Positions 1,500 through 31,596 of a stretch of 35,045 nucleotides of DNA are shown here, in pieces. The position numbers were made by a program, and so were the translations under genes. A model generated the notes under the pieces. It was not told where the DNA came from. It did not search any database and saw nothing but the letters and a program-made list of their open reading frames with translations. Position 1 is the stretch's first letter. Each line of letters opens with the position of its first letter. The stretch comes from a virus: positions 1 through 35,045 of IMG/VR virus record IMGVR_UViG_3300042430_002095, one strand, 5' to 3'.

Positions 1500-1571
1500 G
1501 CTGCCATCATCTAACGGTCAGGATATATGGTTTTCATCCATAAAATCGGAGTTCGATTCTCCGTGGCAGTA
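1500..1571 (+). tRNA. tRNA-Glu (UUC)
   Basis: Acceptor GCTGCCA/TGGCAGT (G-U at 1:72), anticodon stem TATGG/CCATA with loop TTTTCAT giving UUC, T arm CGGAG-TTCGATT-CTCCG. CCA is not encoded. Confidence 0.9.
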
Positions 1572-1635
1572 CAAGGGTTATGAGCAACGTGTCCCCTAAT
1601 TACACAATGTTGACGATTCGGAAAGACGAATAATT
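1572..1635 (+). other. structured spacer pairing with the 5' end of tRNA-Ala
   Basis: CCCC (1593-1596) and AATTA (1598-1602) can pair with TAATT (1631-1635) and the first four G of tRNA-Ala (1636-1639), with one bulged T. An inner hairpin ATTCG/CGAAT lies between. This would compete with the tRNA acceptor stem and may be a processing element. Confidence 0.35.
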
Positions 1636-1709
1636 GGGGCTGTAGTTCAATTGGCTGAATAGCTCGTTTGCAACGAGAAGGTATGCGGGTTCGACCCCCG
1701 TCAGTTCCA
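1636..1709 (+). tRNA. tRNA-Ala (UGC)
   Basis: Acceptor GGGGCTG/CAGTTCC, anticodon loop TTTGCAA (UGC) on a CTCG/CGAG stem, T arm GCGGG-TTCGACC-CCCGT, discriminator A. Confidence 0.9.
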
Positions 1710-1809
1710 CAAAAAACAGAAAGACAGAATACGGGAAGTCACTACCCGGGAAACACGGTTCTTTCTCCTTCAATTGTTATAGGATAGTCACCTTTGAATT
1801 GAAAATTTT
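1710..1809 (+). other. structured spacer between tRNA-Ala and tRNA-Asp
   Basis: No gene. GAAAGA/TCTTTC (1719-1724/1760-1765) encloses CGGG/CCCG (1732-1735/1745-1748), and CAATT/AATTG (1771-1775/1797-1801) forms a second hairpin. Possibly a small RNA; no family recognised. Confidence 0.3.
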
Positions 1810-1885
1810 GGTCTTGTGAGCCCCATTGGTAGGGGAATTGCACTGTCACTGCTCTAAAATGAGGGTTCGAAACCCTCCGGGACCG
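1810..1885 (+). tRNA. tRNA-Asp (GUC)
   Basis: Acceptor GGTCTTG/CGGGACC, T arm GAGGG-TTCGAAA-CCCTC, discriminator G as usual for Asp. Anticodon loop CTGTCAC gives GUC; the anticodon stem is weak (GCA/TGC plus mismatches). Confidence 0.85.
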
Positions 1886-1902
1886 CAATTAAATAATACA
1901 TC

Positions 1903-1976
1903 GCGAGTGGGGGGCATAGAGTTTCCGCAAGTCTCATAAACTTGACATAAGACAGGGGCGGTACCTGTACTTCGCT
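1903..1976 (+). tRNA. tRNA-like element with CAU anticodon, abnormal T loop
   Basis: A perfect anticodon arm CAAGT-CTCATAA-ACTTG gives CAU with U33. A 5-bp T stem ACAGG/CCTGT is present, but its loop is GGCGGTA rather than a TTCNANN loop. The acceptor pairs only partly (GCGAG with TTCGC, then mismatches). It may be a decaying tRNA-Met or tRNA-Ile2, or a specialised tRNA mimic. Confidence 0.5.
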
Positions 1977-1993
1977 ACTAAAAACAAATAAAT

Positions 1994-2065
1994 TGCAGGT
2001 TAGAGCAGAGGTAGCTCGGGAGGCTCATAACCTCTAGGTCGTTGGTTCGAATCCAGCACCTGCTA
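1994..2065 (+). tRNA. tRNA-Met type (CAU)
   Basis: Anticodon arm GAGG-CTCATAA-CCTC (CAU), T arm GTTGG-TTCGAAT-CCAGC, acceptor GCAGGT/ACCTGC with a T-T mismatch at 1:72. The unpaired first position is initiator-like, but the three G-C pairs of initiator anticodon stems are not complete. Met, fMet or Ile2 cannot be separated by eye. Confidence 0.85.
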
Positions 2066-2144
2066 CGAATGTGTCTCAATTCCCTGAAGAAATTCAAACT
2101 TGAGGTCCCGGTAGACAGTACTAGTCTGAATCTACCCAAAAAAT
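2066..2144 (+). other. structured spacer between tRNA-Met and tRNA-Gly
   Basis: CTCAA/TTGAG (2075-2079/2100-2104) encloses TGAA-GAAA-TTCA (2085-2096), a GNRA hairpin. GGTAGA/TCTACC follows, with AGAC/GTCT nested inside it. Confidence 0.3.
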
Positions 2145-2218
2145 GACGGTATCGCCTAGTAGGTATGGCACCACACTTCCAATGTGGAATAAGGTCGGTT
2201 CGAGACCGACTATCGTCT
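2145..2218 (+). tRNA. tRNA-Gly (UCC)
   Basis: Acceptor GACGGTA/TATCGTC, anticodon arm CCACA-CTTCCAA-TGTGG (UCC), T arm GTCGG-TTCGAGA-CCGAC, discriminator U as common for bacterial Gly. Confidence 0.92.
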
Positions 2219-2231
2219 CAAAAAAAAAAAC

Positions 2232-2304
2232 GTCCTTATGATGTAATGGATTGGCATACAAATCTTCTAAATTTGTCGTTTGGGTTCGAATCCCGATAAG
2301 GATA
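2232..2304 (+). tRNA. tRNA-Arg (UCU)
   Basis: Acceptor GTCCTTA/TAAGGAT, anticodon arm CAAAT-CTTCTAA-ATTTG (UCU), T arm TTGGG-TTCGAAT-CCCGA, discriminator A. Reads AGA, abundant in AT-rich genes. Confidence 0.92.
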
Positions 2305-2311
2305 CAATAAT

Positions 2312-2385
2312 ACCCTCGTGGGCAAACGGGAAAGCCGCTTCACTTAGGATGAAGAGTTTTGTGAGTTCGACTCTCACCGGGGGTA
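2312..2385 (+). tRNA. tRNA-Leu (UAG) with a short variable loop
   Basis: Acceptor ACCCTCG/CGGGGGT, anticodon arm CTTCA-CTTAGGA-TGAAG (UAG, G37), T arm GTGAG-TTCGACT-CTCAC, discriminator A. The variable region is only about 6 nt (AGTTTT), whereas bacterial Leu tRNAs carry a long variable arm, as the Leu-UAA tRNA at 3061 does. The 5' half resembles Leu tRNAs, so the arm seems to have been lost. Confidence 0.8.
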
Positions 2386-2421
2386 CAAATACATTATCAT
2401 AACTCGGTGTGATACACCGCC

Positions 2422-2552
2422 AAACTACCTCCTTAAACAACGTGGGAACTGCGGTTCTCCCAATGTGGCCGAAGTGATGATGTTAAAAGAAACAGAGAAA
2501 AATCTGGACAGCGAAAGCAGGATAGACCTTGGACAGTTTCTTTTAGTAGTTT
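2422..2552 (+). ncRNA. structured RNA A in the tRNA array
   Basis: About 131 nt closed by AAACTAC/GTAGTTT (2422-2428/2546-2552). Immediately inside lies a perfect 9-bp helix AAAAGAAAC/GTTTCTTTT (2485-2493/2536-2544). The 5' part has a GGGAAC-TGCG-GTTCTCCC hairpin, and the inner loop contains GC-GAAA-GC. A hairpin GGTGT-GAT-ACACC lies just before it and CAGAGT/ACTCTG (about 2560-2590) just after. No reading frame and no RNA family recognised. Confidence 0.45.
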
Positions 2553-2597
2553 AAGAGACAGAGTTGACTTCTACTTAAAAAAAATACTCTGCAACAG

Positions 2598-2671
2598 GGT
2601 TCCTACGCATAAAAGGTGGTGCACGGGTTTTGTAACCCCGAATAGAGTCAGTTCGATTCTGACAGGAACCT
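2598..2671 (+). tRNA. tRNA-Thr (UGU)
   Basis: Perfect acceptor GGTTCCT/AGGAACC, T arm GTCAG-TTCGATT-CTGAC, anticodon loop TTTGTAA (UGU) on a CGGG/CCCG stem. Confidence 0.88.
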
Positions 2672-2675
2672 CAAT

Positions 2676-2765
2676 TGTTAGATGATATAGTGGTAGTATT
2701 TGGTCGTCGATTCACGAAAGTGGGGTATCTTCGGCAGAGCACGGGTTCGATTCCTGTTCTAACAA
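2676..2765 (+). tRNA. tRNA-like element, 90 nt, anticodon unassigned
   Basis: Acceptor TGTTAGA/TCTAACA (7 bp), D arm ATAT-AGTGGTA-GTAT, T arm ACGGG-TTCGATT-CCTGT and discriminator A are all good. The middle (2700-2741) does not give a regular 5-bp anticodon stem with a 7-nt loop; instead CAC-GAAA-GTG forms a GNRA hairpin. The length would suit a class II tRNA, and GTCGATT (CGA, Ser) is the best but poor anticodon-loop candidate. Confidence 0.55.
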
Positions 2766-2767
2766 CA

Positions 2768-2968
2768 AATGAGATAGAGATACTCAATGATTTGGCATCG
2801 TTCGAAATAATGATGTAGCTGACGCCTCATACGGTTTTACAGAGGGGGTCTGTCGGAATAAAGGGAACTGACAACAATCCCTCCGAGTAGTTGTTGACTT
2901 TTAAGCGGTAAGACGCGATGGGTTTTGAATAGAAAAACTGTGGACATCTACACCAAAATAATCTCATT
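2768..2968 (+). ncRNA. structured RNA B in the tRNA array
   Basis: About 200 nt closed by a perfect 8-bp helix AATGAGAT/ATCTCATT (2768-2775/2961-2968). Inside are ACAGA-GGGGG-TCTGT and CAACAA/TTGTTG hairpins among others, with no reading frame. The closed multi-hairpin layout resembles independent structured RNAs, but I could not match RNase P, 6S, SRP or tmRNA signatures. Confidence 0.5.
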
Positions 2969-2979
2969 GGTGGAAGGAT

Positions 2980-3055
2980 TGGTAAGAAGTTTTGTTGGCG
3001 AAACACTCGGTGGGTAACTGCCGAGAGTCCGTGGGTTCGAAACCCACCTTATCAA
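2980..3055 (+). tRNA. tRNA-like element with a 10-nt anticodon loop
   Basis: Acceptor TGGTAAG/CTTATCA, D arm GTTT/AAAC and T arm GTGGG-TTCGAAA-CCCAC are good. The anticodon arm is 20 nt instead of 17: CTCGG/CCGAG with loop TGGGTAACTG, which can zip further to 8 bp around a GTAA tetraloop. No anticodon can be assigned. Confidence 0.55.
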
Positions 3056-3060
3056 CAACT

Positions 3061-3145
3061 ACCCGGGTGGTGGAATGGTATACACGCTAGACTTAAAATC
3101 TAGTCCTCCGTAAGGGGGTTGAGGGTTCAAGTCCCTCTCCGGGTA
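3061..3145 (+). tRNA. tRNA-Leu (UAA)
   Basis: Acceptor ACCCGGG/TCCGGGT, anticodon arm CTAGA-CTTAAAA-TCTAG (UAA), class II variable arm CCTCC-GTAA-GGGGG, T arm GAGGG-TTCAAGT-CCCTC, discriminator A. Confidence 0.93.
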
Positions 3146-3199
3146 CAAAAAGGTAATCGTAAAAAATAATTAAAAAACTTAAACTTTGTGTAGGTTCGA

Positions 3200-4528: not shown

Positions 4529-4601
4529 GGTCTCGTAACTCAGAGGTTAGAGTGCTACACTCATAATGTAGAAGTCGGGATATCGTAATTCTCCGGGGCC
4601 A
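4529..4601 (+). tRNA. tRNA with CAU anticodon (Met or Ile2)
   Basis: Acceptor GGTCTCG/CGGGGCC, perfect anticodon arm CTACA-CTCATAA-TGTAG (CAU), discriminator A. The T stem GGATA/TCTCC has a mismatch and the loop is TCGTAAT, a departure from TTCNANN. Confidence 0.78.
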
Positions 4602-13697: not shown

Positions 13698-13741
13698 AAA
13701 TAAAAAAAATGGATATAATGATATGATTTTAGAAAATTAAT

Positions 13742-13779
13742 AAAAAAAAAATCCATCATATGATGGATTTTTTTTTTAT
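13742..13779. terminator. bidirectional terminator at the 3' end of the tmRNA
   Basis: Palindrome AAATCCATCAT/ATGATGGATTT (13749-13770) flanked by A- and T-runs. On the minus strand it follows the tmRNA 3' end (13785) by a few bases. Confidence 0.8.
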
Positions 13780-13784
13780 TAAAG

Positions 13785-14194
13785 TGGAGATGCCGATTTC
13801 GAAATCGGGTGTTGTCCATCCTAAGTGTTTAGGTCTACACGTTTATTCAATTAATTCTCAACTGACAAATAAGAAGGTTTTAATTTTTCCATCATTACCT
13901 ACAACTGTGGGAGGTTCACTTTAATAGGTAGACCCTCAAACGAGACCTTGACACTCTTCGGGTGGTATCACACCTTAAGATATTTCTGTTGCAAGGTACA
14001 TATATCCGTCGACCCCAATGTGTGTTTGCTTACGCTACGTTCACAAGCTCATCTTGACGTACAAGACCTACTAGAGCCATTTTGTTTAAAATGTTGCCAT
14101 TTATAATTTTGTCATCCATAGATTTAAGTGATAGGAAACTTCTCACTACGTGCCCTAAATAAGTAGATATGTCAGTCAATTCCATTTCATCCCC
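13785..14194 (-). ncRNA. ssrA: tmRNA (transfer-messenger RNA), phage-encoded
   Basis: Minus-strand RNA of 410 nt. The 5' end GGGGATGAAATGGAATTGAC fits the tmRNA 5' signature (GGGGnTGnnnnTGGnnTnGAC). The first seven bases pair with CATCTCC at the 3' end (13786-13792), leaving discriminator A at 13785 with no encoded CCA. A long H2 helix can be drawn between CTACTTATTTAGGGCACG (14166-14149) and CGTGTAGACCTAAACACTTAG (written here only as its pairing cores TTTAGG/CCTAAA and CTA/TAG). AGTGA/TCACT after it suits pseudoknot 1. The T arm CCGAT-TTCGAA-ATCGG has a 6-nt loop, one short of normal. The best tag frame ends QDELVNVA followed by TAA (near tmRNA nt 163-165), not the usual ALAA; the resume codon is not assigned. 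A Bacteroidetes-type promoter and a terminator flank it. Confidence 0.85.
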
Positions 14195-14208
14195 CTATTA
14201 TTATGGTA

Positions 14209-14239
14209 CAAAGATAAACATAAATATTGAAATTCCAAA
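14209..14239 (-). promoter_or_regulatory. Bacteroidetes-type promoter of the tmRNA
   Basis: Minus strand: TTTG (14239-14236), 19-bp spacer, TATCTTTG (14216-14209). The mature tmRNA 5' end at 14194 is 15 nt past the -7 box, leaving a short leader for RNase P to remove. Confidence 0.75.
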
Positions 14240-14246
14240 CAAAAAA

Positions 14247-14256
14247 AGTATTTATT
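14247..14256 (+). promoter_or_regulatory. TATTTAT box (candidate late promoter)
   Basis: AGTATTTATT, 14 nt before the ATG at 14271; back to back with the tmRNA promoter. Confidence 0.55.
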
Positions 14257-14270
14257 GTAAAATCATTTTA

Positions 14271-15410
14271 ATGAAAGTAATAAAATTAACTGAATCAGAC
14301 CTTAATCATATTATCAGAAGGGTCATACAGACAGAGCAAGACACTGAAAAAGAGGAAGATAAGAACTTAGTTGTCGGTCTTAGAAATTTTTCTAAAGGTA
14401 GAATTAGTACTGACGAGTTATATAATATCGATAATACTATAGACTATATTCAAACTAAGGAACCTTTAGGTCAATCTATTATAACCATTAAATTTGAAGA
14501 TGATAAAGAATTTTTAGAAGAAATTGACATGGACGAATCAGATGTTTGGTTCATGCAAGCTATTAATTCATACAATGGATATGATTTTCAAGATTCATAT
14601 CAAATAGAACAAGATTTTAAAGAAGGGTACAATGTGTATTATGAATTGAACGATGAGAATAAAGAAACTCTTAAGGACATCGCATCCACAATATTACCTG
14701 AAAAAGAATTTAATCTCGAGAGTGAAGAATACAGACAAGAATTATCCGAAATGTTACTTGATTTATTTCCTAATGAAATTGATTATATCCTCGGGGATTT
14801 TCAATCTGAAAAAGAGCACGAAATGAATACTGTCGCAAAAAAGGCAATCGAAGATGAATTTAATAAACCGTTAGAGGAAAATGGTATTAACCTTAATTAC
14901 AATATGGATGAAGTGGAAATCACTCTTGCCGATTTATATTTGGGTGCGTTACAACTAAATTTATTTAATTCTAATGCCAAAGAGATTGTTACAAAAATAA
15001 TAAATAAGTCTTTTGGAGGGTCAACTCCTGGTGGTTGGTATGAGAAAATTTACGAGTTTCAAGATGAACAATATTTCGATTCAGTATCATTTAATAATGA
15101 GGTTACAAGACAATTTGAAAAGATTATTGAAAAATTAGATGAAAAAAGTGACGAAGAATATACAATTCAAGACTTTGTTGAATTTAGAAACCGAGTTGTA
15201 TCTAAATATAAATTAAAAACTTGGTATGAAACCCCTAAAGACGACAATATTATTTTTCAAATTGAATCGTTTAATCCGGGTAATATGTCAGTTAAATTAA
15301 TTGTCAAAACTAAAGATACCGGATTATTTAAAAAACTTGAATTGGAAGAAGAAGAATTTAACAATTTTTTATATCAAAATACCTTATTTAATTTGGATGA
15401 CATGTATTAA
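14271..15410 (+). CDS. large acidic unknown protein with LTESDL-type leader
   Basis: Start taken at the ATG of 14271 (MKVIKLTESDLNHIIRRVIQ), because it directly follows a TATTTAT box; the open frame reaches back to 14169 through DNA that is tmRNA on the other strand. The protein has 379 residues, is strongly acidic and has no membrane segment. The leader (basic, hydrophobic, LTE, amphipathic helix) is one of five similar ones in this window and could be a prohead-targeting sequence cut after LTE. The rest alternates helical acidic blocks and ends with a beta-like domain (FNPGNMSVKLIVKTKDTGLF). No family recognised. The end of the gene contains the TTTG of the next promoter. Confidence 0.75.
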   Translation: MKVIKLTESDLNHIIRRVIQTEQDTEKEEDKNLVVGLRNFSKGRISTDELYNIDNTIDYIQTKEPLGQSIITIKFEDDKEFLEEIDMDESDVWFMQAINSYNGYDFQDSYQIEQDFKEGYNVYYELNDENKETLKDIASTILPEKEFNLESEEYRQELSEMLLDLFPNEIDYILGDFQSEKEHEMNTVAKKAIEDEFNKPLEENGINLNYNMDEVEITLADLYLGALQLNLFNSNAKEIVTKIINKSFGGSTPGGWYEKIYEFQDEQYFDSVSFNNEVTRQFEKIIEKLDEKSDEEYTIQDFVEFRNRVVSKYKLKTWYETPKDDNIIFQIESFNPGNMSVKLIVKTKDTGLFKKLELEEEEFNNFLYQNTLFNLDDMY

Positions 15411-15423
15411 TTTATTACCTTTG
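15392..15423 (+). promoter_or_regulatory. Bacteroidetes-type promoter of the peptidase gene
   Basis: TTTG (15392-15395), 20-bp spacer, TACCTTTG (15416-15423). The ATG follows only 4 nt later, so the mRNA is probably leaderless or nearly so. Confidence 0.65.
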
Positions 15424-15427
15424 TCCC

Positions 15428-16270
15428 ATGACAAACGATATATTATTACTAAAAGAAGTTCTTAGTGTTCCAACCGTAACTTATAAAGAAGACCTAATGG
15501 TTGAATTTTTACAGAATTGGTTGACCGAAAACAATATAGAACATTATGTTGATGAACACAAAAATGTTTATGCAACCAAACAAGAACTTGAAACACTTCC
15601 TGAGGACTTTTACTTCCCTTGTGTTATTGCACATACTGACACAGTCCACAGATTAGACAATATAATAGTTCATGAAGAACAATTACCTAATGCTCAAGGT
15701 GAGATTAAAGATTCGTTGAAAGCTTACAACTTACATGGATTACCAACCGGAATCGGTGGTGATGATAAATGTGGAGTATTTGCTTGTTTAAAATTACTAA
15801 AAGAATTACCAAATTTAAAAGCCACTTTCTTTGTATCTGAAGAAACCGGATGTCACGGTTCCAAAAAGGCTGACCCTGAATTCTTCACTAATGTTGGTTA
15901 TGGAATTCAATTTGACGCTCCGGAGAACTGGATGATTACCGAAAAATGTTTCAGTCAAGATTTATTTGATAGAGAGTCAGAATTCTTTGAAGTTTGTGAC
16001 CAAGTATTAACCGAAGGGATGCATAACGAAGATATGCAATACATGGTTCATCCATATACTGATGTTTATGCGTTGAGAAGTAAATTTAGTTTTTCTTGTA
16101 TCAACTTTTCAATTGGGTATTACGATTACCACACACCAAACGAATATGTGGTGATTGAGGATGTTTTCAAAGGGATTGAAATGGGAAGACAAATGATTGA
16201 AAAACTTGGGAATAAGTTACACTACAAAGAAGTAGTTGAGATTCCAAGATATAATCACAGATTCTTCTAA
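15428..16270 (+). CDS. M20/M28-type zinc metallopeptidase (peptidase T-like)
   Basis: A 280-residue co-catalytic zinc peptidase. Ligand motifs appear in the family order: IAHTDTVH (His69, Asp71), IGGDDKCG (bridging Asp112), SEETGCHGS (catalytic Glu138, ligand Glu139), FDAPE (Asp163) and DYHTPNEYV (His235). The set is complete, so activity on di- or tripeptides or short peptides is expected; no signal peptide, so cytoplasmic. The length is short for M20 because the dimerisation domain is reduced, as in M28/M42-like enzymes. It lies between the tmRNA and the ClpC-like gene, a position fitting final degradation of peptides released by a protease. Terminator at 16276-16304. Confidence 0.85.
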   Translation: MTNDILLLKEVLSVPTVTYKEDLMVEFLQNWLTENNIEHYVDEHKNVYATKQELETLPEDFYFPCVIAHTDTVHRLDNIIVHEEQLPNAQGEIKDSLKAYNLHGLPTGIGGDDKCGVFACLKLLKELPNLKATFFVSEETGCHGSKKADPEFFTNVGYGIQFDAPENWMITEKCFSQDLFDRESEFFEVCDQVLTEGMHNEDMQYMVHPYTDVYALRSKFSFSCINFSIGYYDYHTPNEYVVIEDVFKGIEMGRQMIEKLGNKLHYKEVVEIPRYNHRFF

Positions 16271-16275
16271 AATAT

Positions 16276-16304
16276 AAAAGAGACCAAATGGTTTCTTTTT
16301 TGTT
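16276..16304 (+). terminator. Rho-independent terminator
   Basis: AAAAGAGACC-AAAT-GGTTTCTTTT (16276-16299), 10 bp, then T residues. Confidence 0.8.
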
Positions 16305-16308
16305 TTAG

Positions 16309-16318
16309 GGTATTTATT
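16309..16318 (+). promoter_or_regulatory. TATTTAT box (candidate late promoter)
   Basis: GGTATTTATT, 3 nt before the ATG at 16322 and just after a terminator. Confidence 0.6.
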
Positions 16319-16321
16319 AAT

Positions 16322-16663
16322 ATGAAAATATTAATTAACGAAAATAGGGTTGATAGTCTAATCAACAAGTGGTTGGAAGATGAATATGGAGGGTTAAAAC
16401 ACAAAGTTTCTGTTGATTATCCTGACCTTTATTATTTTATGAAAAATGGTGATGTTGTTATGGAATATTATGAAAAATACGGTAGACTCGGACTTGATGA
16501 TAGTATTATAACTTTCATTATGAAAATGTTTAATAAACCGTGGTTGGAAACTAAAGAGATGGTTGCAGTATGGTTCCAAAATTCATATAATTTAGATGTT
16601 GATATTGTCATAGAACCATTATCAACTACAAGGACTATTTGGAAGTCATATTCCGACAATTAA
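16322..16663 (+). CDS. hypothetical protein with putative prohead-targeting leader
   Basis: A 113-residue protein starting MKILINENRVDSLINKW. The leader contains LINE, the same tetrapeptide as the predicted head-protease site of the capsid protein (LINE at 57-60), which makes it the best leader candidate of the five. The remainder is compact, with aromatic and charged residues (DYPDLYYFMKNGDVVMEYYE) and no membrane segment or known domain. It is a single-gene unit: terminator before, TATTTAT box, gene, and a terminator shared with the convergent ClpC-like gene after it. Confidence 0.72.
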   Translation: MKILINENRVDSLINKWLEDEYGGLKHKVSVDYPDLYYFMKNGDVVMEYYEKYGRLGLDDSIITFIMKMFNKPWLETKEMVAVWFQNSYNLDVDIVIEPLSTTRTIWKSYSDN

Positions 16664-16674
16664 CCATATAAAAA

Positions 16675-16698
16675 AAAGGGGATTTTCATCCCCCTTTC
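16675..16698. terminator. bidirectional terminator between convergent genes
   Basis: AAAGGGGAT/ATCCCCCTTT (16675-16683/16688-16697) with flanking A- and T-runs. Confidence 0.8.
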
Positions 16699-16701
16699 TT
16701 A

Positions 16702-18717
16702 TTATTTTCCTTTTTTCTGAATTGTGATGTCCTCACCCTTCATTTTGATTTGGTAGGATTTACCCTCAACCATTTTACCGGTTAATACTTCTTCGGATAA
16801 CAAATCCTCAATTTTGTCTTGGATTGCTCTCTTCAATGGTCTTGCACCATATACTTCATCGTATCCAATTTTAGATAGGTATTTAACAACCTCATCATCG
16901 TAGGTTACGGTGTATTTCATCTCACCAAGACGAGTCATTAATTTCTTTAACTCAATATCGGTGATTTTATCGATATCTTCAGGAGTTAATGAATTAAAGA
17001 CAATAGTGTCATCAATACGGTTAATGAACTCAGGAGAAAAGAAATTCTTCATCTCTTTCATCAAGATTTCTTTCTTAGCTTCTTCGTCGGCGTAAGAGTT
17101 ATTAGAGAATCCAATACCAGTACCGAAGTCTTGTAATTTCTTAACACCTAAGTTAGATGTAAGGATGATTAAGGTATTCTTGAAGTTAATCTTTCTACCT
17201 AAACTATCGGTTACGTGTCCATCATCTAATATTTGAAGTAATACCGTGAAAACATCTTTGTGAGCTTTTTCAACCTCATCAAATAAGATTACAGAATATG
17301 GTTTGTTTTTAACTTTCTCAGTTAATAAACCTCCTTCTTCGTAACCAACATATCCCGGAGGTGCTCCAACCAATTTAGAGATGGTGTGTTTCTCTTGGTA
17401 TTCTGACATATCCACACGGATAAGTGAATCTTCTGTTCCAAACATCTCTTTAGCTAATTGTTTGGCCAAGTGAGTTTTACCAACACCGGTTGAACCTAAG
17501 AAAATAAATGAACCAATAGGTCTGTTAGGGTCTTTGATACCCAAACGGTTTCTCTTGATTGATTTTGCAATCTTAACAACAGCAGCATCCTGACCAATCA
17601 CTTTACCCATGATTGATTTATCTAAATTCATCAACGCTTTGGAATCATCAGCATCCATTTTACTCACAGGGATTTTAGTCATACTTGACACAACTTGATA
17701 TACGGTTTCAAGAACAATAGTTTGTTTCTCCAAATCCATTTGTTTTGCAAACTTATCTTTTTCCGCCTCAAGTTTAATCAATAACTTTTTCTCCTTATCT
17801 CTAAGTTGTGCTGCTTGTTCGTAGTTTTGTTTTTTAACCACTTCCATTTTTTCAATCTTAATCTCAGCGGCTTTCTTTTTTAATTCCTCAATAACATCAG
17901 GAACTTTAATCTCGGTTTGCATACGAGCACCAACCTCATCTAAGATGTCAAATGCTTTATCCGGGAACTCACGGTCGGTGATGTAACGGTCAGCCAACTT
18001 AACACAAGTTTCCACAACTTCGTCACTATACAACACTTTGTGGTATGATTCGTATTTATCACGAACATTCTTAAGGATTTCGATTGTTTCTTCAACTGTG
18101 GATGGCTCCACAATTACTTTTTGGAATCTTCTTTCCAAGGCTCCGTCTTTCTCAATGTTCTTACGGAACTCATCAAGAGTTGTCGCACCAATACATTGAA
18201 CCTCTCCACGGGCAAGTGCCGGTTTGAAGATGTTTGAACCATCCATTGAACCTGAAGAATTACCGGAACCAACCAATGTGTGAATCTCATCGATAAACAC
18301 AATGATATTTGGATTAGCACTAAGTTCCTCGATAATCACTTTCATTCTTTCCTCAAATTGTCCACGATACTTTGTACCAGCAACAACTGAAGTTAAATCA
18401 AGGTTCACGATTCTTTTGTCCACTAAGTTTCTTGGACATTCTCCACTCACAATTTTCATAGCCAAACCTTCAACCAATGCGGTTTTACCACATCCGGGTT
18501 CACCTATGATAATAGGGTTATTCTTTTTTCTACGAGAAAGGATTTGTGCGATTCTCAAAATCTCGGCATCTCTACCAATAACCGGGTCTAATTTACCCGC
18601 CTCAGCTAGTTTATTTAAATCTCTACTGAAGTTGTCTAATACAGGTGTGTTTGTATCCATAGCTTGTTTTTGTGCTTTGTTCCCTGATTTGTCGTTGTCG
18701 TCCATTAAGTCGTTCAT
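16702..18717 (-). CDS. clpC: ClpC-like double AAA+ unfoldase lacking the N-domain
   Basis: Start chosen at the ATG of 18717 (MNDLMDD); a TTG at 18750 would add 11 residues. 671 residues: a short linker instead of the Clp N-domain, then D1 (Walker A GEPGCGKT at 72-79, Walker B VFIDEIH at 140-146). A ClpC-type middle region contains a UVR-like helix pair (283-314, ending NYEQAAQLRDKEKKL). D2 follows (Walker A GSTGVGKT at 408-415, Walker B VILFDE at 476-481, pore loop GYVGYEEGG) and then the C-terminal small domain. GIGF at 534-537 matches the ClpP-docking loop of ClpC/ClpA. It is shorter than host ClpC (about 800 or more) because the substrate/adaptor N-domain is missing. No clpP lies here, so it would use host ClpP. 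Divergent from the UVR gene. Confidence 0.93.
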   Translation of the reverse strand: MNDLMDDNDKSGNKAQKQAMDTNTPVLDNFSRDLNKLAEAGKLDPVIGRDAEILRIAQILSRRKKNNPIIIGEPGCGKTALVEGLAMKIVSGECPRNLVDKRIVNLDLTSVVAGTKYRGQFEERMKVIIEELSANPNIIVFIDEIHTLVGSGNSSGSMDGSNIFKPALARGEVQCIGATTLDEFRKNIEKDGALERRFQKVIVEPSTVEETIEILKNVRDKYESYHKVLYSDEVVETCVKLADRYITDREFPDKAFDILDEVGARMQTEIKVPDVIEELKKKAAEIKIEKMEVVKKQNYEQAAQLRDKEKKLLIKLEAEKDKFAKQMDLEKQTIVLETVYQVVSSMTKIPVSKMDADDSKALMNLDKSIMGKVIGQDAAVVKIAKSIKRNRLGIKDPNRPIGSFIFLGSTGVGKTHLAKQLAKEMFGTEDSLIRVDMSEYQEKHTISKLVGAPPGYVGYEEGGLLTEKVKNKPYSVILFDEVEKAHKDVFTVLLQILDDGHVTDSLGRKINFKNTLIILTSNLGVKKLQDFGTGIGFSNNSYADEEAKKEILMKEMKNFFSPEFINRIDDTIVFNSLTPEDIDKITDIELKKLMTRLGEMKYTVTYDDEVVKYLSKIGYDEVYGARPLKRAIQDKIEDLLSEEVLTGKMVEGKSYQIKMKGEDITIQKKGK

Positions 18718-18838
18718 AGTTTCTAATTTTATTTTACAAAGGTGTATCAAATTTTATTCTTATCCTAATTTTTAGACAAATTGTCAGTAAGTTTTTTTTA
18801 ACCTGACATATTGACATATTTTTTGGTTTGGTATATTA

Positions 18839-18870
18839 TTTGAATAATACAAAGGTATAAAATAAATTTG
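18839..18870 (+). promoter_or_regulatory. Bacteroidetes-type promoter of the UVR gene
   Basis: TTTG (18839-18842), 20-bp spacer, TAAATTTG (18863-18870), 17 nt before the ATG at 18888. The divergent clpC-like gene has only a partial -7 match (CACCTTTG on the minus strand near 18740) and no clear -33 element. Confidence 0.6.
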
Positions 18871-18887
18871 AATTAAAAAATAAAATT

Positions 18888-19268
18888 ATGTTTGGAAACA
18901 GAAAAAATTTTAATGACATTTTGAGAGAATTTGATAATATGTTCTCTCAGTTTGATTCTTCTCAGTTAGGGGAATGGAAATCAGAAACAAGAGTATCTGA
19001 AGATGGTACGATAAAAGTGACTTCATTCTATAGAAGTTCAGAACCAAAAACACCTAAAGGTAGTAATGGTTTAAAACGACAACTTGAGTTGGCAATCGAA
19101 AATGAAGACTTTGAGAAAGCGGTTGAGATTAGAGACCAAATCAGAAAAATGGAAACTAATCAAGAATCTATCTCTAAACTTGAAGAAGAATTAAAACAAT
19201 CAATTAAAGACCATAACTTTGAACGGTCAATTGAAATTCGTGATGAATTAAAAAAATTAAAACTTTAA
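18888..19268 (+). CDS. double UVR-motif protein (McsA-like adaptor candidate)
   Basis: A 126-residue protein with two UVR motifs: 62-89 (LKRQLELAIENEDFEKAVEI then RDQIRKME) and 98-125 (LEEELKQSIKDHNFERSIEI then RDELKKL). UVR motifs are paired helices in UvrB, UvrC, ClpC and McsA, where they mediate protein-protein contacts. The N-terminal 55 residues (MFGNRKNFNDILREFDNMFS and on) are novel. There is no cysteine at all, so the zinc fingers of McsA are absent. Its position, divergent from and next to a ClpC-like gene whose middle domain also has a UVR-like pair, suggests an adaptor or activator of that unfoldase (inference). A terminator follows at 19273-19301. Confidence 0.82.
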   Translation: MFGNRKNFNDILREFDNMFSQFDSSQLGEWKSETRVSEDGTIKVTSFYRSSEPKTPKGSNGLKRQLELAIENEDFEKAVEIRDQIRKMETNQESISKLEEELKQSIKDHNFERSIEIRDELKKLKL

Positions 19269-24931: not shown

Positions 24932-26689
24932 TTGAATAAAGAACAATTAATTATTGAAGTAACGAAGTGCATGAGGAATACTCCCTACGCACTTCGTACT
25001 TATTTACAGACATACGATAATACGGTCTCAAAATACGTACCGTTAGACCTATTCCCCGACCAAATTACACTTATTGAGGATTATGATAATCACAATGAAA
25101 ATGTTGCACTAAAGTATCGACAAGCGGGTGTATCGACCGTAACTGCCGCTTGGGCATCAAAAAAATTGGCCTTTGCAAAAAAAACTAAACCTGAAAAAAT
25201 ATTAATCATTGCCAACAAGTTAGATACTGCGGTGGAGATGGCTAATAAAGTTAGAGGGTTTACTGAACAATGGCCCGCGTGGGTTGGTGTTGGATTCTCT
25301 CAAGAAAAAAATGCTCAACGTCACTTTAAACTAACTAATGGATGTGAAGTTAAAGCAGTTGCAACCTCTCGAGATGCTCTTAGGGGTTATACCCCAACTA
25401 TTCTGATATTTGATGAGGCGGCTTATATTGAGGCGGATGGAGATTTTTGGGCTGCTTGTATGGCATCCTTATCCACAGGGGGTAAGGTTATAGTTGTTTC
25501 CACACCTAACGGATACGACCCAATCTACTATGAAATTTATGACCAATCACTTAGAGGTATGAATGACTTCAAAGTGACTGAAATGTTTTGGCATCGTGAC
25601 CCACGATATACAAAAGATTTATATATGGTGAAAACAAATGACTTAGTCCATTTCTTATTAAATCGTGAAGAATATAATCTTGATGAGGTTGTAATTAACC
25701 TATCAACGCCTAACCCATTTGAAAGAGACCATTCAATAGTGACAAACTATATAGAACAAGGGTATAAACCATGTTCATCATGGTTTGAAGGGATGGTTAA
25801 GAAATTAAAATATGATAGACGTAAAGTTGCACAAGAGTTAGAATGTAACTTTTTAGGTTCCGGAGATAATGTATTTGATTCGGATATGATGCAAGATATT
25901 TCTAAAAACCAAGTTAAAGACCCGCAGGCTAAAATGATGGGTGGAGGTCTTTGGATATGGAAAGAACCGGAAAATGGTCATAAATATGTAATGGGTGTTG
26001 ATGTATCTCGAGGAGATTCCGAAGATTTCTCAAGTATTGAAATAATTGATTTTGACGCCCGTGAACAAGTATTGGAATATGTTGGAAAAATTCCACCAGA
26101 TGTATTGGCAGAAATAGCTTATAAATGGGGAACCATGTATAGCGCCTTTTGTGTTGTTGATTTAACTGGTGGTATGGGAGTTGCAACCGCAAGAAAACTC
26201 CAAGAAATGAATTACCAAGGTGGATTATATGTTGATGGTGTTGATATGACCAATAAATGGAAATACGACCCAAAAATAAATGAAAAAATCCCGGGAATTA
26301 ACTTTAACTCAAAAAGGGTTCAAATTATAGCCTCGTTTGAAGAAGCGATGAGACATAAGTTTAGAATTTATTCGAGTCGTTTGTATAATGAAATGAACAC
26401 ATTTGTTTATATTAATGGACGACCTGACCACCAAAAAATGCATCACGATGATTGTATAATGAGTATTGCTATGGCAATATATGTTGCTGAGAAATCATTC
26501 CAATCACTAGAAAAAGTTACTAATCACACAAGAGCAATGTTAAACTCTTGGTCGACAGCTGTGACTGAAAATAAAAACTCCTCAGAATTCTTTAACCCGA
26601 TGGTGCCTCAAATGGGTAGACAACATCCAATGAATCAGGGGTCAACGAGAGAAGACTATCAAAAATACGGGTGGTTATTTGGCGGGTAA
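24932..26689 (+). CDS. terL: terminase large subunit (T4 gp17-like)
   Basis: 585 residues counted from a TTG at 24932; the ATG at 24971 is the alternative and would lose 13 residues. ATPase domain: a deviant Walker A KYRQAGVST at 61-69 (Lys at the front, Val where T4 has Lys), Walker B ILIFDEAAYIE (157-167), coupling motif STPNG (190-194). Nuclease domain: GVDVSRGDSEDFSS (355-368, Asp357), VVDLTGG (Asp410) and HHDD (504-507), the acidic triad of RNase H-like terminase nucleases. It cuts and pumps DNA into the prohead through the portal encoded next. No intein or insertion is seen in this gene. Confidence 0.95.
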   Translation: MNKEQLIIEVTKCMRNTPYALRTYLQTYDNTVSKYVPLDLFPDQITLIEDYDNHNENVALKYRQAGVSTVTAAWASKKLAFAKKTKPEKILIIANKLDTAVEMANKVRGFTEQWPAWVGVGFSQEKNAQRHFKLTNGCEVKAVATSRDALRGYTPTILIFDEAAYIEADGDFWAACMASLSTGGKVIVVSTPNGYDPIYYEIYDQSLRGMNDFKVTEMFWHRDPRYTKDLYMVKTNDLVHFLLNREEYNLDEVVINLSTPNPFERDHSIVTNYIEQGYKPCSSWFEGMVKKLKYDRRKVAQELECNFLGSGDNVFDSDMMQDISKNQVKDPQAKMMGGGLWIWKEPENGHKYVMGVDVSRGDSEDFSSIEIIDFDAREQVLEYVGKIPPDVLAEIAYKWGTMYSAFCVVDLTGGMGVATARKLQEMNYQGGLYVDGVDMTNKWKYDPKINEKIPGINFNSKRVQIIASFEEAMRHKFRIYSSRLYNEMNTFVYINGRPDHQKMHHDDCIMSIAMAIYVAEKSFQSLEKVTNHTRAMLNSWSTAVTENKNSSEFFNPMVPQMGRQHPMNQGSTREDYQKYGWLFGG

Positions 26690-26728: not shown

Positions 26729-29545
26729 ATGAGCGAACAACAAAATAATATGACGGTATGGCAGAGATTATCCCAAACATTTGGGCCTAATTCTCAATTA
26801 AACCAAGATTATCCAACTTTTAAGTTTGATAAAAAGGAATTACTACGTACCAAAAGTAAAGAAGAATACGAGAAAGAAAAGTTACAGGCGCAACAAACCT
26901 TTTATTTAACCAATCAATGGGCAAAAGTTGAGAATAATTTATATTCTCAGGCAATATATTATGAACCGTCAAGATTATCGGCACAATACGATTATGAAAG
27001 TATGGAATATTGCATCGCCGGAGACACAAAAATAGCAACTCCTGATGGTTTTATAACCATAAAAGAACTTGCTGACAAAGGCAGAGATTACGAATTTATC
27101 ACTTATTCGTATGACCACAATTTGAAAAAAGTCGTACCCTCAAAGGCTCGAAATGCACATTACACTCGAGATGAAATGACATATAAAGTTATTTTTGACG
27201 ATGGTTCATTTATTATCACAACATGGGAACACCAATTAATGAAAAGAGATGGGTCATTTGAGAGAGTTATGAACCTCAAAGACGGGGATTCTATGATGCC
27301 GTTTTATCGTAAATCATTTTATAATAACCAAAACTATAATTGGGTTTACACTTGCAATAAAGATGAAGGACACCATGGGTGGGTATCAGAACATAGTTTA
27401 ATTGCAAAATGGTATAATGAAGTAGAAATAAAAGACAACGAAGAAGTACACCATATTGATTTTAATGGGAAAAATAATCTTCCTGAAAATTTATTAATTA
27501 TGGATATTTCAGAACATAGAGCATATCATGCAAGATTGAATAATGAAAAATTATGGTCTAATCCTGAGTATAGATTAAAAATGTCTGAAGTTGCCAAACG
27601 TAAAGGTAAAATGACTTGGGGTGGAAAACGTAAAGGTAATAAAAATCCAGCATATTTTTCGATACCTTTTGACAATATCATTGAAACGGCGAGAATTGAG
27701 AAATCTTTGAAAAAAACATCTTTAAAGTTGAATGTTTCATACAGGAAATTACAAAGAGATATTACAAATTCCGGTTACAAAGATTGGTCAACATTCCTCG
27801 ACGCTTATGGTATTGAAAAATCAAAATACTCTACGTCAAAAAGTGTGGGGTCTTCAATTAATTTGAATCATAAAATAGTGTCAATAGAACCTAATGGAGT
27901 TATTCCTGTTTATGATTTAACAGTTCCCGGATATAAAAACTTTGCAACAGATACTATATTTTCCCATAACACTCCTGAAATATCAGCAGCGTTAGACATT
28001 TATGCGGAAGAATCAACCACAACAAATGAAGATGGGTTTATATTACAAATTTATTCAGAGTCAAACAGAATAAAAGGGGTATTAGCCGACTTGTTTAATA
28101 ACTCACTTGACATTAACACTAACCTACCAATGTGGACAAGAAACACTTGCAAGTATGGTGATAACTTTATTTTTTTAAAATTAGACCCTGAAAAAGGAAT
28201 TGTAGGTGTTCAACAATTACCAACAATCGAGATTGAAAGACATGAAGTAGGGGTAAGTGCAAAAATATCGACTGACATAACTAAAGAATTAGATAAAGAC
28301 AAAAAATCTCTTCATTTTACTTGGAAGATTAAAAACATGGAATTCCAAACATGGGAAATTGGTCATTTTAGATTATTAGGTGACGACAGAAAACTTCCTT
28401 ATGGTACTTCTATGTTAGAGAAAGCAAGAAGAATTTGGAAACAATTATTACTATCAGAAGATGCGATGTTAATTTATCGTACATCAAGAGCACCTGAAAG
28501 AAGAATGTTTAAAGTATTTGTTGGTAATATGAACGATGACGATGTCGAGGCATACGTACAAAGAGTTGCAAATAAATTTAAAAGAGAACAGGTTGTAGAT
28601 AATAAAACAGGTAATGTTGACATGAGGTTTAACCAAATGGCGGTAGACCAAGATTATTTCATCCCAGTTAGAGACCCTTCAGCACCTGACCCGATTACTA
28701 CATTACCAGGGGCGACCAACCTTTCAGAAATTGCCGATATTGAATATATCCAAAAGAAACTATTAACAGCTCTTCGTGTACCTAAAGCATTTTTAGGTTT
28801 TGAAGAAGTTGTAGGAGATGGTAAAAATTTATCTTTACAAGATATTCGTTTTGCTAGAACAATTAATAGAATTCAAAAAAGTATGGTTGCAGAATTAAAT
28901 AAAATTGCAATCGTCCATTTATTTTTATTAGGATTTGAAGACGAATTGGATAATTTCACATTAGGATTAAGTAATCCATCAACCCAAGCAGATTTATTAA
29001 AAATTGACGTTTGGAAAGAAAAAGTTTTATTATACAAAGATTTAGTTGCGGACCCAGGAAATGGTATTCAAGCGACTTCAGCAACATGGGCTAAGAAACA
29101 TATTTTTGGATGGTCAGATGAAGAAGTTCGTTTGGATTTACAACAACAAAGAATTGAAAGAGCGGTAGGGGAAGAGCTTAAGGCAACTGCTACGGTTATC
29201 ACTAAAACAGGTTTATTTGATAATATCGATAAACTTTATGGTAGTACCTCAGGAGGAACCCAAACAGCTTCAACTGAAACATCTGAACCACCTCCATCAT
29301 TTGGCGGGGGAGAATTTGAAACCTCCGATTTAGGCGGCGAAGAATTACCACCGGCAGGGGAAGAAACAGTTCCACCTCCACCAGTCGGAGGAGAAGCGGA
29401 AATAACCCCGGAATCTCGAATTAATAACTTAAATATGTTGGTTGAGAATAACTTAATAGAAGGGGCTCAAATGATTAATTTAGGTCATGGACAAGAATCT
29501 TTAGGAGAAATTTCAAAAGAATTGGATAAGTTACTAAATTCCTAA
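26729..29545 (+). CDS. portal protein (T4 gp20-like), split by an intein
   Basis: 938 residues as encoded, 618 after removal of the intein at 95-414. N-extein: residues 1-94, ending YDYESMEY. C-extein resumes TPEISAALDIYAEES and continues with the gp20-type core (LPYGTSMLEKARRIWKQLLL, then ...YRTSRAPERR...; IEYIQKKLLTALRVPKAFLG and FEEVVGDG). The C-terminus (855-938) is Pro/Gly/Glu-rich then helical. The portal is the dodecameric DNA channel at the head vertex and nucleates assembly with the scaffold. Position between terminase and protease matches T4. The insertion lies in a conserved portal segment, as usual for inteins. Confidence 0.92.
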   Translation: MSEQQNNMTVWQRLSQTFGPNSQLNQDYPTFKFDKKELLRTKSKEEYEKEKLQAQQTFYLTNQWAKVENNLYSQAIYYEPSRLSAQYDYESMEYCIAGDTKIATPDGFITIKELADKGRDYEFITYSYDHNLKKVVPSKARNAHYTRDEMTYKVIFDDGSFIITTWEHQLMKRDGSFERVMNLKDGDSMMPFYRKSFYNNQNYNWVYTCNKDEGHHGWVSEHSLIAKWYNEVEIKDNEEVHHIDFNGKNNLPENLLIMDISEHRAYHARLNNEKLWSNPEYRLKMSEVAKRKGKMTWGGKRKGNKNPAYFSIPFDNIIETARIEKSLKKTSLKLNVSYRKLQRDITNSGYKDWSTFLDAYGIEKSKYSTSKSVGSSINLNHKIVSIEPNGVIPVYDLTVPGYKNFATDTIFSHNTPEISAALDIYAEESTTTNEDGFILQIYSESNRIKGVLADLFNNSLDINTNLPMWTRNTCKYGDNFIFLKLDPEKGIVGVQQLPTIEIERHEVGVSAKISTDITKELDKDKKSLHFTWKIKNMEFQTWEIGHFRLLGDDRKLPYGTSMLEKARRIWKQLLLSEDAMLIYRTSRAPERRMFKVFVGNMNDDDVEAYVQRVANKFKREQVVDNKTGNVDMRFNQMAVDQDYFIPVRDPSAPDPITTLPGATNLSEIADIEYIQKKLLTALRVPKAFLGFEEVVGDGKNLSLQDIRFARTINRIQKSMVAELNKIAIVHLFLLGFEDELDNFTLGLSNPSTQADLLKIDVWKEKVLLYKDLVADPGNGIQATSATWAKKHIFGWSDEEVRLDLQQQRIERAVGEELKATATVITKTGLFDNIDKLYGSTSGGTQTASTETSEPPPSFGGGEFETSDLGGEELPPAGEETVPPPPVGGEAEITPESRINNLNMLVENNLIEGAQMINLGHGQESLGEISKELDKLLNS
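27011..27970 (+). mobile_element. HNH-containing intein in the portal gene
   Basis: 320 residues (Cys95 to Asn414). Splicing motifs: block A CIAGDTKIATPDGFITIKEL, block B TTWEH (Thr165, His168), block F VYDLTVPGYKNF, block G ending in Ser-His-Asn (penultimate His413, terminal Asn414), and Thr415 as the +1 nucleophile. A homing nuclease of HNH type sits in the middle: EEVHHIDFNGKNNLPENLL (239-257), followed by basic helices that probably bind DNA (KRKGKMTWGGKRKG). All residues needed for splicing are present, so it is probably active. Coding follows the same frame without interruption. Confidence 0.92.
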
Positions 29546-30879: not shown

Positions 30880-31596
30880 ATGAAACAATTAAGAATATTA
30901 GAAGCGACTGAAGTAGGACATGGTATATTAGTTGAAGCGGATGCCGGTTGGGTGTCTCCTAAAGACAAACATAATGAAAAAGTTTTACAAGAAGCTAAAG
31001 ACATGGATTATAGAAACCCATTTGAATTTTATGCTGTTTTACAAAAATACGATACACCAAATAGAAATGGTCGTTCATACCCTGAAAAGATATTAAGAAG
31101 AGAAGCGGACAATTATCAAAAAACAATTAACAAAGGTTTATCAACATCCGAATTAAACCACCCTGAGTCATCTTTAATCGATTTAGACCGAGTATCCCAT
31201 ATTATCACTGAAATATGGTGGGACCGAAATATTTTAATGGGAAAACTAAAATTATTAACTTCTCCGGGTTTTCACGAATCAGGAGTTGTATCCACAAAAG
31301 GGGATATAGCAGCGAACTTAATGAGACAAGGAGTAACCTTAGGTATATCATCAAGAGGGGTTGGGTCGTTAAAAAAAGTTGGAGAAAGAAATGAAGTTCA
31401 GGAAGATTTTGAATTAATCTGTTTTGACTTAGTATCGTCACCGTCCACACCGGGAGCTTATTTATTTTCAAATGCGGATGATAGAGAAAAATATGAGGAA
31501 AATTTAGACGAAGAAAAAAAACATAAACAAAAAGACGATTATGTTGAGAAGTCAGTTGATTTAATGAAAAAATTAAACGACTTTTTAGGAAAATAA
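30880..31596 (+). CDS. prohead protease (T4 gp21-like serine protease)
   Basis: A 238-residue protease. The catalytic set can be read as His94 (SELNHPE), the serine in GISSRGVGS (157-163; Ser158 by comparison with the T4 family) and the downstream ELICFDLVSSPSTPGA block. It matures the prohead by cutting scaffold, capsid protein and internal proteins after (I/L)xE. Its own N-terminus, MKQLRILE|ATE, contains such a site, suggesting autoprocessing. The acidic/Lys-rich tail (205-230) may be another removable segment. It lies between portal and scaffold as in T4 and is followed after 7 nt by the DUF4494-like gene. Confidence 0.92.
   Translation: MKQLRILEATEVGHGILVEADAGWVSPKDKHNEKVLQEAKDMDYRNPFEFYAVLQKYDTPNRNGRSYPEKILRREADNYQKTINKGLSTSELNHPESSLIDLDRVSHIITEIWWDRNILMGKLKLLTSPGFHESGVVSTKGDIAANLMRQGVTLGISSRGVGSLKKVGERNEVQEDFELICFDLVSSPSTPGAYLFSNADDREKYEENLDEEKKHKQKDDYVEKSVDLMKKLNDFLGK

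Follow-up and report, generated by a model that had tools for sequence, protein, structure and literature searches.

The closest described relative of the system considered here is the bacterial transfer-messenger RNA (tmRNA) and SmpB pathway, with the proteases ClpXP and ClpAP. Phage-borne tmRNAs are also known, from mycobacteriophages, phage G, the OM43 phage Melnitz and the huge phages of Al-Shayeb 2020. Huge phages carrying both tmRNA and SmpB have been reported (PMC7162821), one survey gives tmRNA in 402 of 18,146 phages (PMC9004378), and both surveys mention ARAGORN in their methods or results. The DNA analysed in this work is a stretch of 35,045 bases, the IMG/VR viral record IMGVR_UViG_3300042430_002095, which is called the window below. 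It carries a tmRNA gene in a conserved block with a Clp ATPase and a peptidase, an arrangement that distinguishes it from the known phage tmRNAs. The likeness to the bacterial system lies in the tmRNA fold, the G3.U70 pair, the position of the resume codon and, in a sister group of phages, the adjacency of SmpB. It differs in being phage-encoded, in having a tag of 21–22 amino acids with invariant K6 and G11 and without the YALAA or LAA end, and in its linkage to a ClpC-like ATPase that lacks the N domain. Earlier work describes tmRNA in phages and, for huge phages, its combination with SmpB (PMC7162821, PMC9004378, PMC4131195); the arrangement of the locus and the long tag appear to be new. 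In the PMC literature, covered by titles and abstract openings and with subscription papers mostly outside it, no phage locus of tmRNA, SmpB, Clp and peptidase and no tags of such length were found. An initial annotation of the window had proposed a possible phage proteolysis module of tmRNA, peptidase, ClpC-like ATPase and UVR protein and had named no described precedent for such a gene set.

On balance, we favour the view that these genes belong to a phage-run trans-translation system, the tag of which feeds the phage ClpC-like ATPase and ClpP. The phage tmRNA, charged with alanine, would rescue ribosomes that have stalled on mRNAs cleaved in the course of infection, using phage SmpB where it is present or host SmpB, and would add a phage-specific tag of 21–22 residues instead of the host tag of 9–10 residues. 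The phage ClpC-like ATPase would then unfold the tagged proteins for degradation inside phage ClpP, if the Clp protease reads the tag. The UVR protein, where present, may dock on the middle domain of the ATPase as an adaptor, and the PepT-like peptidase may trim the released peptides. At the sequence level, a covarying tmRNA, a conserved tag, the ClpP triad, the ClpP loop of the ATPase, the smpB-tmRNA pairs of the sister group and a stable co-location argue for this system. Charging of the tmRNA and its tagging activity are predicted from these features, and the weakest links would be the recognition of the tag by Clp, the adaptor role of the UVR protein and the role of the peptidase. For the question of why tmRNA genes occur in phages, it matters that a conserved non-host tag here comes with a phage unfoldase, a protease and sometimes SmpB, which suggests that these giant viruses maintain their own private form of a pathway that serves quality control in bacteria. 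As one genome holds much of it in one locus, two points can be tested cleanly: by which protease the tag is read, and to which proteins it is added in infected cells.

The window is identical at the compared genes to G001 (IMGVR_UViG_3300033995_001164, 309,177 bp), which identifies it as a piece of a jumbo phage genome. Its one-piece tmRNA gene (ssrA; 13782..14194, minus strand) scored 50.6 bits with the Rfam model RF00023, the cut-off of which is 47. The acceptor stem is GGGGATG/CATCTCC with G3.U70, the T loop has 6 nt, and the 3′ end is ACTT, not ACCA. Fifty related records, which were not dereplicated, were used for the counts of tmRNA, ClpP and SmpB; the tmRNA scored above the Rfam cut-off in 42 of them, with 98.6 bits as the highest score. 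A phage-trained nhmmer profile recovered copies in five of the eight records below the cut-off (G010, G014, G035, G041 and G048). In the remaining three no tmRNA was found: the contig of G021 stops before the site, and LR745206 and LR756502 presented only tRNA-like scraps. All seven acceptor pairs and all five T-stem pairs form in each of 38 distinct tmRNAs, including that of the window; the acceptor stem shows ten different pair combinations, with compensatory changes, while G3.U70 is constant in all 38. RNAalifold indicated changes on both sides at 33 of 42 pairs. Because the stems cov­ary across the relatives and 77 distinct relatives share the tag, tmRNA and tag go beyond chance, and on this evidence the tmRNA is considered genuine.

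A decay of the tmRNA in the lineage of the window might be read from its low score (among the records over the cut-off, only G037 is lower), its ACTT end without encoded CCA and its 6-nt T loop. This is very improbable, since all acceptor and T-stem pairs and the tag frame are intact, and the 6-nt T loop also occurs in 6 of the 38 distinct tmRNAs, including that of L219, which encodes ACCA and reaches 80.6 bits. ACCA is encoded at the 3′ end in 26 of the 38. An encoded 3′ CCA is not universal in bacterial tmRNAs, and CCA can be added post-transcriptionally.

Upstream of the tmRNA lies a promoter-like box TAnnTTTG, found by sequence match (TATCTTTG, 14209..14216, minus strand), and directly 3′ of the gene a terminator-like perfect hairpin with A/T tails was recognized by eye (13739..13780, minus strand). 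The box was present within 60 nt upstream, at several distances, in 64 of 75 distinct upstream stretches, while 200 mono-nucleotide shuffles gave a mean of 6.6 and a maximum of 14. We take TAnnTTTG to be the Bacteroidota promoter consensus; such a host-type motif is compatible with transcription by host RNA polymerase and therefore gives no support for strictly late expression. ARAGORN detected 16 of 40 of these tmRNAs, with the full tag in nine, a shorter stretch or the end of the same frame in six and an unrelated frame in one, and it did not detect the tmRNA of the window, which suggests that such tmRNAs are under-annotated.

The tag reading frame of the window, GNILNKMALVGLVRQDELVNVA followed by a stop codon, is located at 14030..14098 (minus strand). 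In the loci L003-L191, nhmmer gave 163 matches, of which 156 were near-full copies and 77 were distinct, and a frame was called in all 77. The search for tags used a loose motif around the position where translation should resume and accepted lengths of 15–28, so that the open frame is partly given by construction. This does not hold for the success in all 77, for the constancy of K6 and G11, for the two shifted frames, of which one is open in 5 and the other in 1 of the 77, or for ARAGORN, which by itself arrives at the tag in 9 of 40. The tag has 21 residues in 65 tmRNAs and 22 in 12, with K6 and G11 invariant throughout, as in GNTFAKMAALGLTREAVVVGA, GNTLAKMSALGLTREASVVTA and GNVLNKMALVGLVKQDELVAVA. 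The third codon position varies most, and the pN/pS is modest, at 0.52, or 0.44 among close pairs, with 0.47 (10 pairs) and 1.42 (55 pairs) for the shifted frames. Among Bacteroidota genomes, the Rfam tmRNA was present in 24 of 24, and ARAGORN read a tag in 23, with 9–10 residues of the GENNYALAA type; the resume codon lies at 91–96 within the phage gene versus 93–98 in Bacteroidota. The LAA end is what E. coli ClpX reads. The phage tags end mostly in VVxA or VAVA, some in VVTI, and since these endings differ from LAA, a poor reading of the phage tag by host ClpXP is plausible.

SmpB was found in 4 of the 50 records, including G001, where it is far from the block, and G004, where it is beside the tmRNA. 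Two phage SmpBs exceeded the cut-offs of PF01668 and TIGR00086 (161.8 and 177.4 bits, and 154.1 and 171.2 bits), and none was found in the window. A direct scan revealed 52 viral SmpB loci, and in 35 of them a sister-group tmRNA lies 93–2226 nt away, always on the opposite strand. These 35 loci include the peptidase in 34, the conserved protein p14169 in 30, clp in 26 and all of them in 22; as the loci were fetched with 6-kb flanks, the smpB-clp span of 4.9–6.4 kb is bounded by the flank. The 17 loci without a nearby tmRNA comprise five of the lineage of the window (L538-L542), with smpB elsewhere, and short or divergent ones. Fifteen large smpB contigs presented a tmRNA over the Rfam cut-off in 9 cases, a Clp ATPase match in 11 and ClpP in 10, and the sub-cut-off tmRNA scores include 45.6 (G076) and 41.4 (G085). 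Clp ATPase, ClpP and tmRNA occur together in G076, G080, G082 and G083 (282–322 kb). In G004, a 1098-aa ORF between smpB and phage-like genes (L244:6220-9516) resembles, by eye, a TonB-dependent outer-membrane receptor.

The tmRNA could also be a sensor or decoy that competes for SmpB and stalled ribosomes and blunts host trans-translation, with no dedicated degradation. A phage tmRNA could indeed titrate host SmpB, and SmpB was not found in three large in-clade contigs (G014, G030 and G043, 317–326 kb). The phage tmRNA of DS6A, which has only the tRNA-like domain (TLD), has been discussed as inhibitor-like (PMC4131195). However, a decoy would not need a complete tag frame, which is conserved in 77 of 77 distinct sequences, and many relatives have their own SmpB next to the tmRNA; we regard this explanation as quite improbable.

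The proposed partner of the tag is a ClpC-like double-AAA+ unfoldase without N domain, encoded at 16702..18750 (minus strand), with the real start probably at the ATG at 18717. It matched the Pfam families AAA, AAA_2 and ClpB_D2-small, and its best PDB match was S. aureus ClpC, residues 144–800. With the ClpC of Bacteroidota and S. aureus, which goes with ClpP, it shares both AAA modules, the UVR-like motif of the middle domain and the GIGF loop; in contrast to ClpC, the match begins only at residue 144, and Clp_N is absent from the 25 Pfam families listed. Because the N-terminal Clp_N domain is lacking, the protein is classified as ClpC-like and not as ClpC. The ClpP-docking loop claimed earlier was located as GIGF at 17107-17118. 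All 80 homologues retain both Walker A motifs, GIGF and the middle-domain motif (Y..AA.LRD). The pore-loop patterns matched 80 and 78 of them, and the Walker B patterns as written 64 and 75. In G083, a second Clp fragment (213213-213662), which corresponds to the C-terminal part with 57% identity in a frame of 167 aa, lies near the full Clp gene.

ClpP was found in 31 of the 50 records, including all 11 of at least 129 kb, and in G001 it lies about 27 kb from the tmRNA. The absence of clpP and smpB noted in the initial annotation holds for the 35-kb window but not for the phage, since G001 has both; the supply of these proteins by the host, assumed there, gives way to a ClpP encoded by the phage and, in some lineages, a phage SmpB. 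The Ser-His-Asp triad is intact in all 80 viral homologues aligned, the best 80 of 156. Its positions were mapped via H. pylori ClpP, with a catalytic numbering that we take to be S99, H124 and D173, and a loss of the catalytic Asp was ruled out, as the residue is kept in 80 of 80 after this mapping. The best PDB and NCBIfam matches of the phage protein are ClpP, though the NCBIfam scores are below the cut-offs. A function as prohead protease was also ruled out for the ClpP of this clade, which has a separate phrog_207 head maturation protease beside the portal (30880-31596).

At least 582 relatives were found in IMG/VR, and the 80 best-matching contigs with the Clp gene were analysed for co-occurrence. 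The peptidase was present in 77, p14169 in 74, the tmRNA in 68 and the UVR protein in 50. The contigs missing tmRNA, peptidase or p14169 end within 110 nt of p14169 or the peptidase, or within about 0.7 kb of clp. The four parts named in the initial annotation were confirmed at their positions by Rfam, Pfam, PHROGs and PDB matches, and the co-occurrence in related phages that it had proposed as a check was observed within the clade; it had left out p14169, a conserved member of the block, and the UVR protein was not supported as a constant part. Its interpretation as a whole is partly supported; its further proposals, an action late in infection and a redirection of host proteolysis, are hypothetical. 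The 113-aa protein p16322 (16322..16663, plus strand; function unassigned) was rejected as part of the module, as it occurs in only 5 of the 80 contigs and is a lineage-specific filler.

A rather unlikely but serious alternative is that the tmRNA serves for rescue only, with a tag that is read by the host or poorly read, that Clp and ClpP have a function of their own, for instance in the breakdown of regulators or defence proteins of the host or in assembly, and that the genes are neighbours by inheritance of the block. The whole region is syntenic, including terminase and portal, so that the genes could owe much of their co-location to vertical inheritance. The UVR protein was not detected, by a profile search of ORFs at E <= 1e-4, in 30 of the 80 contigs; 23 of these, which belong to the 73 assessable contigs, extend for 3.7 kb or more on that side, and the other seven for less than 0.85 kb. 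In LR745206 and LR756502, Clp ATPase, ClpP and SmpB are present but no tmRNA scored over the Rfam cut-off; neither the peptidase nor the UVR protein had a match up to 10 kb from clp, and the 20 kb around smpB gave only tRNA-family matches at Rfam E <= 0.01. In 318 INPHARED records, members of the peptidase family stand alone, which weakens the link to tag processing assumed earlier, and no Rfam tmRNA was found in 14 of 15 further peptidase loci. These observations weigh against the phage-run system proposed above, as do the three large contigs in which SmpB was not found, the failure to find ClpP in the divergent phage G087 (228 kb), the best PHROGs label of the phage ClpP, which is 'head maturation protease', and the location of the block genes on both strands, in several transcription units.

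On the other hand, intergenic distances and insertions vary up to kilobases while the gene set stays together, and the smpB of the sister group is beside the tmRNA, which argue against rescue only. Further, two divergent phages, which came from the SmpB and tmRNA searches and not from the peptidase, have the tmRNA near a PepT-like gene: about 0.1 kb away in G086 and about 0.3 kb in G087, where smpB is 2.4 kb from clp. These PepT-like genes score below every curated M20/PepT cut-off, with M28 just at its cut-off in G086 and no Pfam match in G087. The adjacency of peptidase and tmRNA was rejected as general proof, since ARAGORN found a tmRNA in only 5 of 60 G086-type peptidase loci (of 79 fetched), G086 and G087 included, and an Rfam scan of 15 such loci found it in one. 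In G085, the tmRNA (41.4 bits, below the cut-off) adjoins a ClpP-like gene, perhaps a head protease, for which NCBIfam favours the head-maturation model below its cut-off. The tags of these divergent phages (G085, G086 and G087) are long, with 29 aa by ARAGORN and 28 and 33 aa in frames read by eye; for the 28-aa tag, ARAGORN gives the last 14 residues only. Long tags were also observed in other huge phages (L643-L645, L633, L605/L598 and L600), namely GNTNEVGSVEDLVFALRNNILKANRLAVA and ATSNEVGTAEDLVSALRNNQLAKAELV by ARAGORN, and GKTNELGTSEDLVAALANILPVKEVAFA and one of 33 residues read by eye.

Rescue only is also weakly opposed by mirror-tree comparisons, in which tag distance follows Clp distance more than peptidase distance. 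These used 44 and 45 of the 80 contigs, after dropping clp duplicates and contigs in which the gene or a full tag is missing. For tag and Clp, the partial r was 0.32–0.34 given terminase and 0.20 given six control genes and the tmRNA backbone; under the same two controls, it was 0.39 and 0.24 for the Clp middle domain, 0.08–0.09 and −0.02 for the peptidase, and 0.24–0.27 and 0.22 for p14169. The control gene ktsc, at 0.22, was likewise above all 200 permutations, a further point against the proposed system. Since ktsc passed too and the permutations ignore phylogeny, the covariation of tag and Clp, strongest for the middle domain, is suggestive and only a hint. A stronger version of the phage-run system, which we advance tentatively and hold to be less probable than its general form, is an orthogonal circuit, in which a long, clade-specific degron that host ClpXP reads poorly would be delivered to the phage ClpC-like ATPase and ClpP via the middle domain and also, in phages that have it, the UVR protein, and in which phage-specific tags of 21–33 aa would be a general device of such phages. 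If true, the phage would control the fate of the products of stalled ribosomes.

The peptidase of the block is an M20-type metallopeptidase of 280 aa (15428..16270, plus strand), with the fold nearest PepT. Its Pfam M20 score is barely over the cut-off (24.8 vs 24.6 bits), and it matched phrog_4191, 'peptidase', at E 4e-31. The metal ligands noticed earlier, putatively H69, D71, D112, E138/E139, D163 and H235 as assigned by the M20 pattern, do not vary among the 29 aligned homologues. Five predicted models (pLDDT 70.7 to 87.5) were obtained, and peptidase T structures were the top matches of the fold search (E 2e-11, TM-score 0.65–0.69). Like the tripeptidase PepT (M20B), the protein thus has this fold and putative metal ligands; it differs in its 280 aa against 373–416 for the PepT matches, and the lid/dimerisation domain is apparently missing. 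The NCBIfam models for PepT, beta-Ala-His dipeptidase and lysine/ornithine deacetylase all scored far below cut-off.

Between the tmRNA and the peptidase lies p14169, a conserved protein of 378 aa with function unassigned (14274..15410, plus strand; longest ORF from 14169). Its AlphaFold model (pLDDT 88, pTM 0.71) gave no match in a fold search against the PDB at E <= 0.001, and tblastn against INPHARED gave none at E <= 0.001. Divergent from clp, the 126-aa UVR protein (18888..19268, plus strand) matched Pfam UVR at E 1e-14 in two stretches, with no further Pfam domain above cut-off, and INPHARED tblastn returned no match for it. Among plastid proteins, the UVR-domain protein CLPF is a partner of ClpC, and CLPC1 trapped five UVR proteins (PMC8889267). 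On this analogy, it is reasonable to consider the phage protein a candidate Clp adaptor. It shares UVR motifs with the adaptors CLPF and McsA, and its gene is beside a ClpC-like gene; it differs from them in having two UVR motifs and no cysteine in its 126 residues, hence no McsA-type zinc fingers, and it scored 41.5 with the McsA model, against a cut-off of 210.

The host of the phage is probably a member of the Bacteroidota, as inferred from the relatives of its Clp ATPase and from the size range of the nearest named phages. The best 80 bacterial relatives are ClpC genes of Bacteroidota, mostly Flavobacteriales, with 56–61% identity. The nearest named phage DNA in INPHARED is that of LR745206 and LR756502, uncultured phages of 634 and 642 kb with about 68% identity over the Clp gene, and one study assigns its phages larger than 634 kb to the Mahaphage clade, for which Bacteroidetes hosts are predicted (PMC7162821). 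The block lies upstream of the terminase (24932-26689), the portal (26729-29545) and the head maturation protease (30880-31596). The minus strand carries the tmRNA and clp, the plus strand the peptidase and UVR genes, so the block is not one operon. The portal ORF (938 aa) presents an HNH endonuclease match at residues 194–282, ahead of the portal match at 414–811, probably an intein or other homing insertion. Two tRNA clusters were observed near the block (window 1500-3146 and 4529-4601; L242:2861-6210), one of them directly before clpP.

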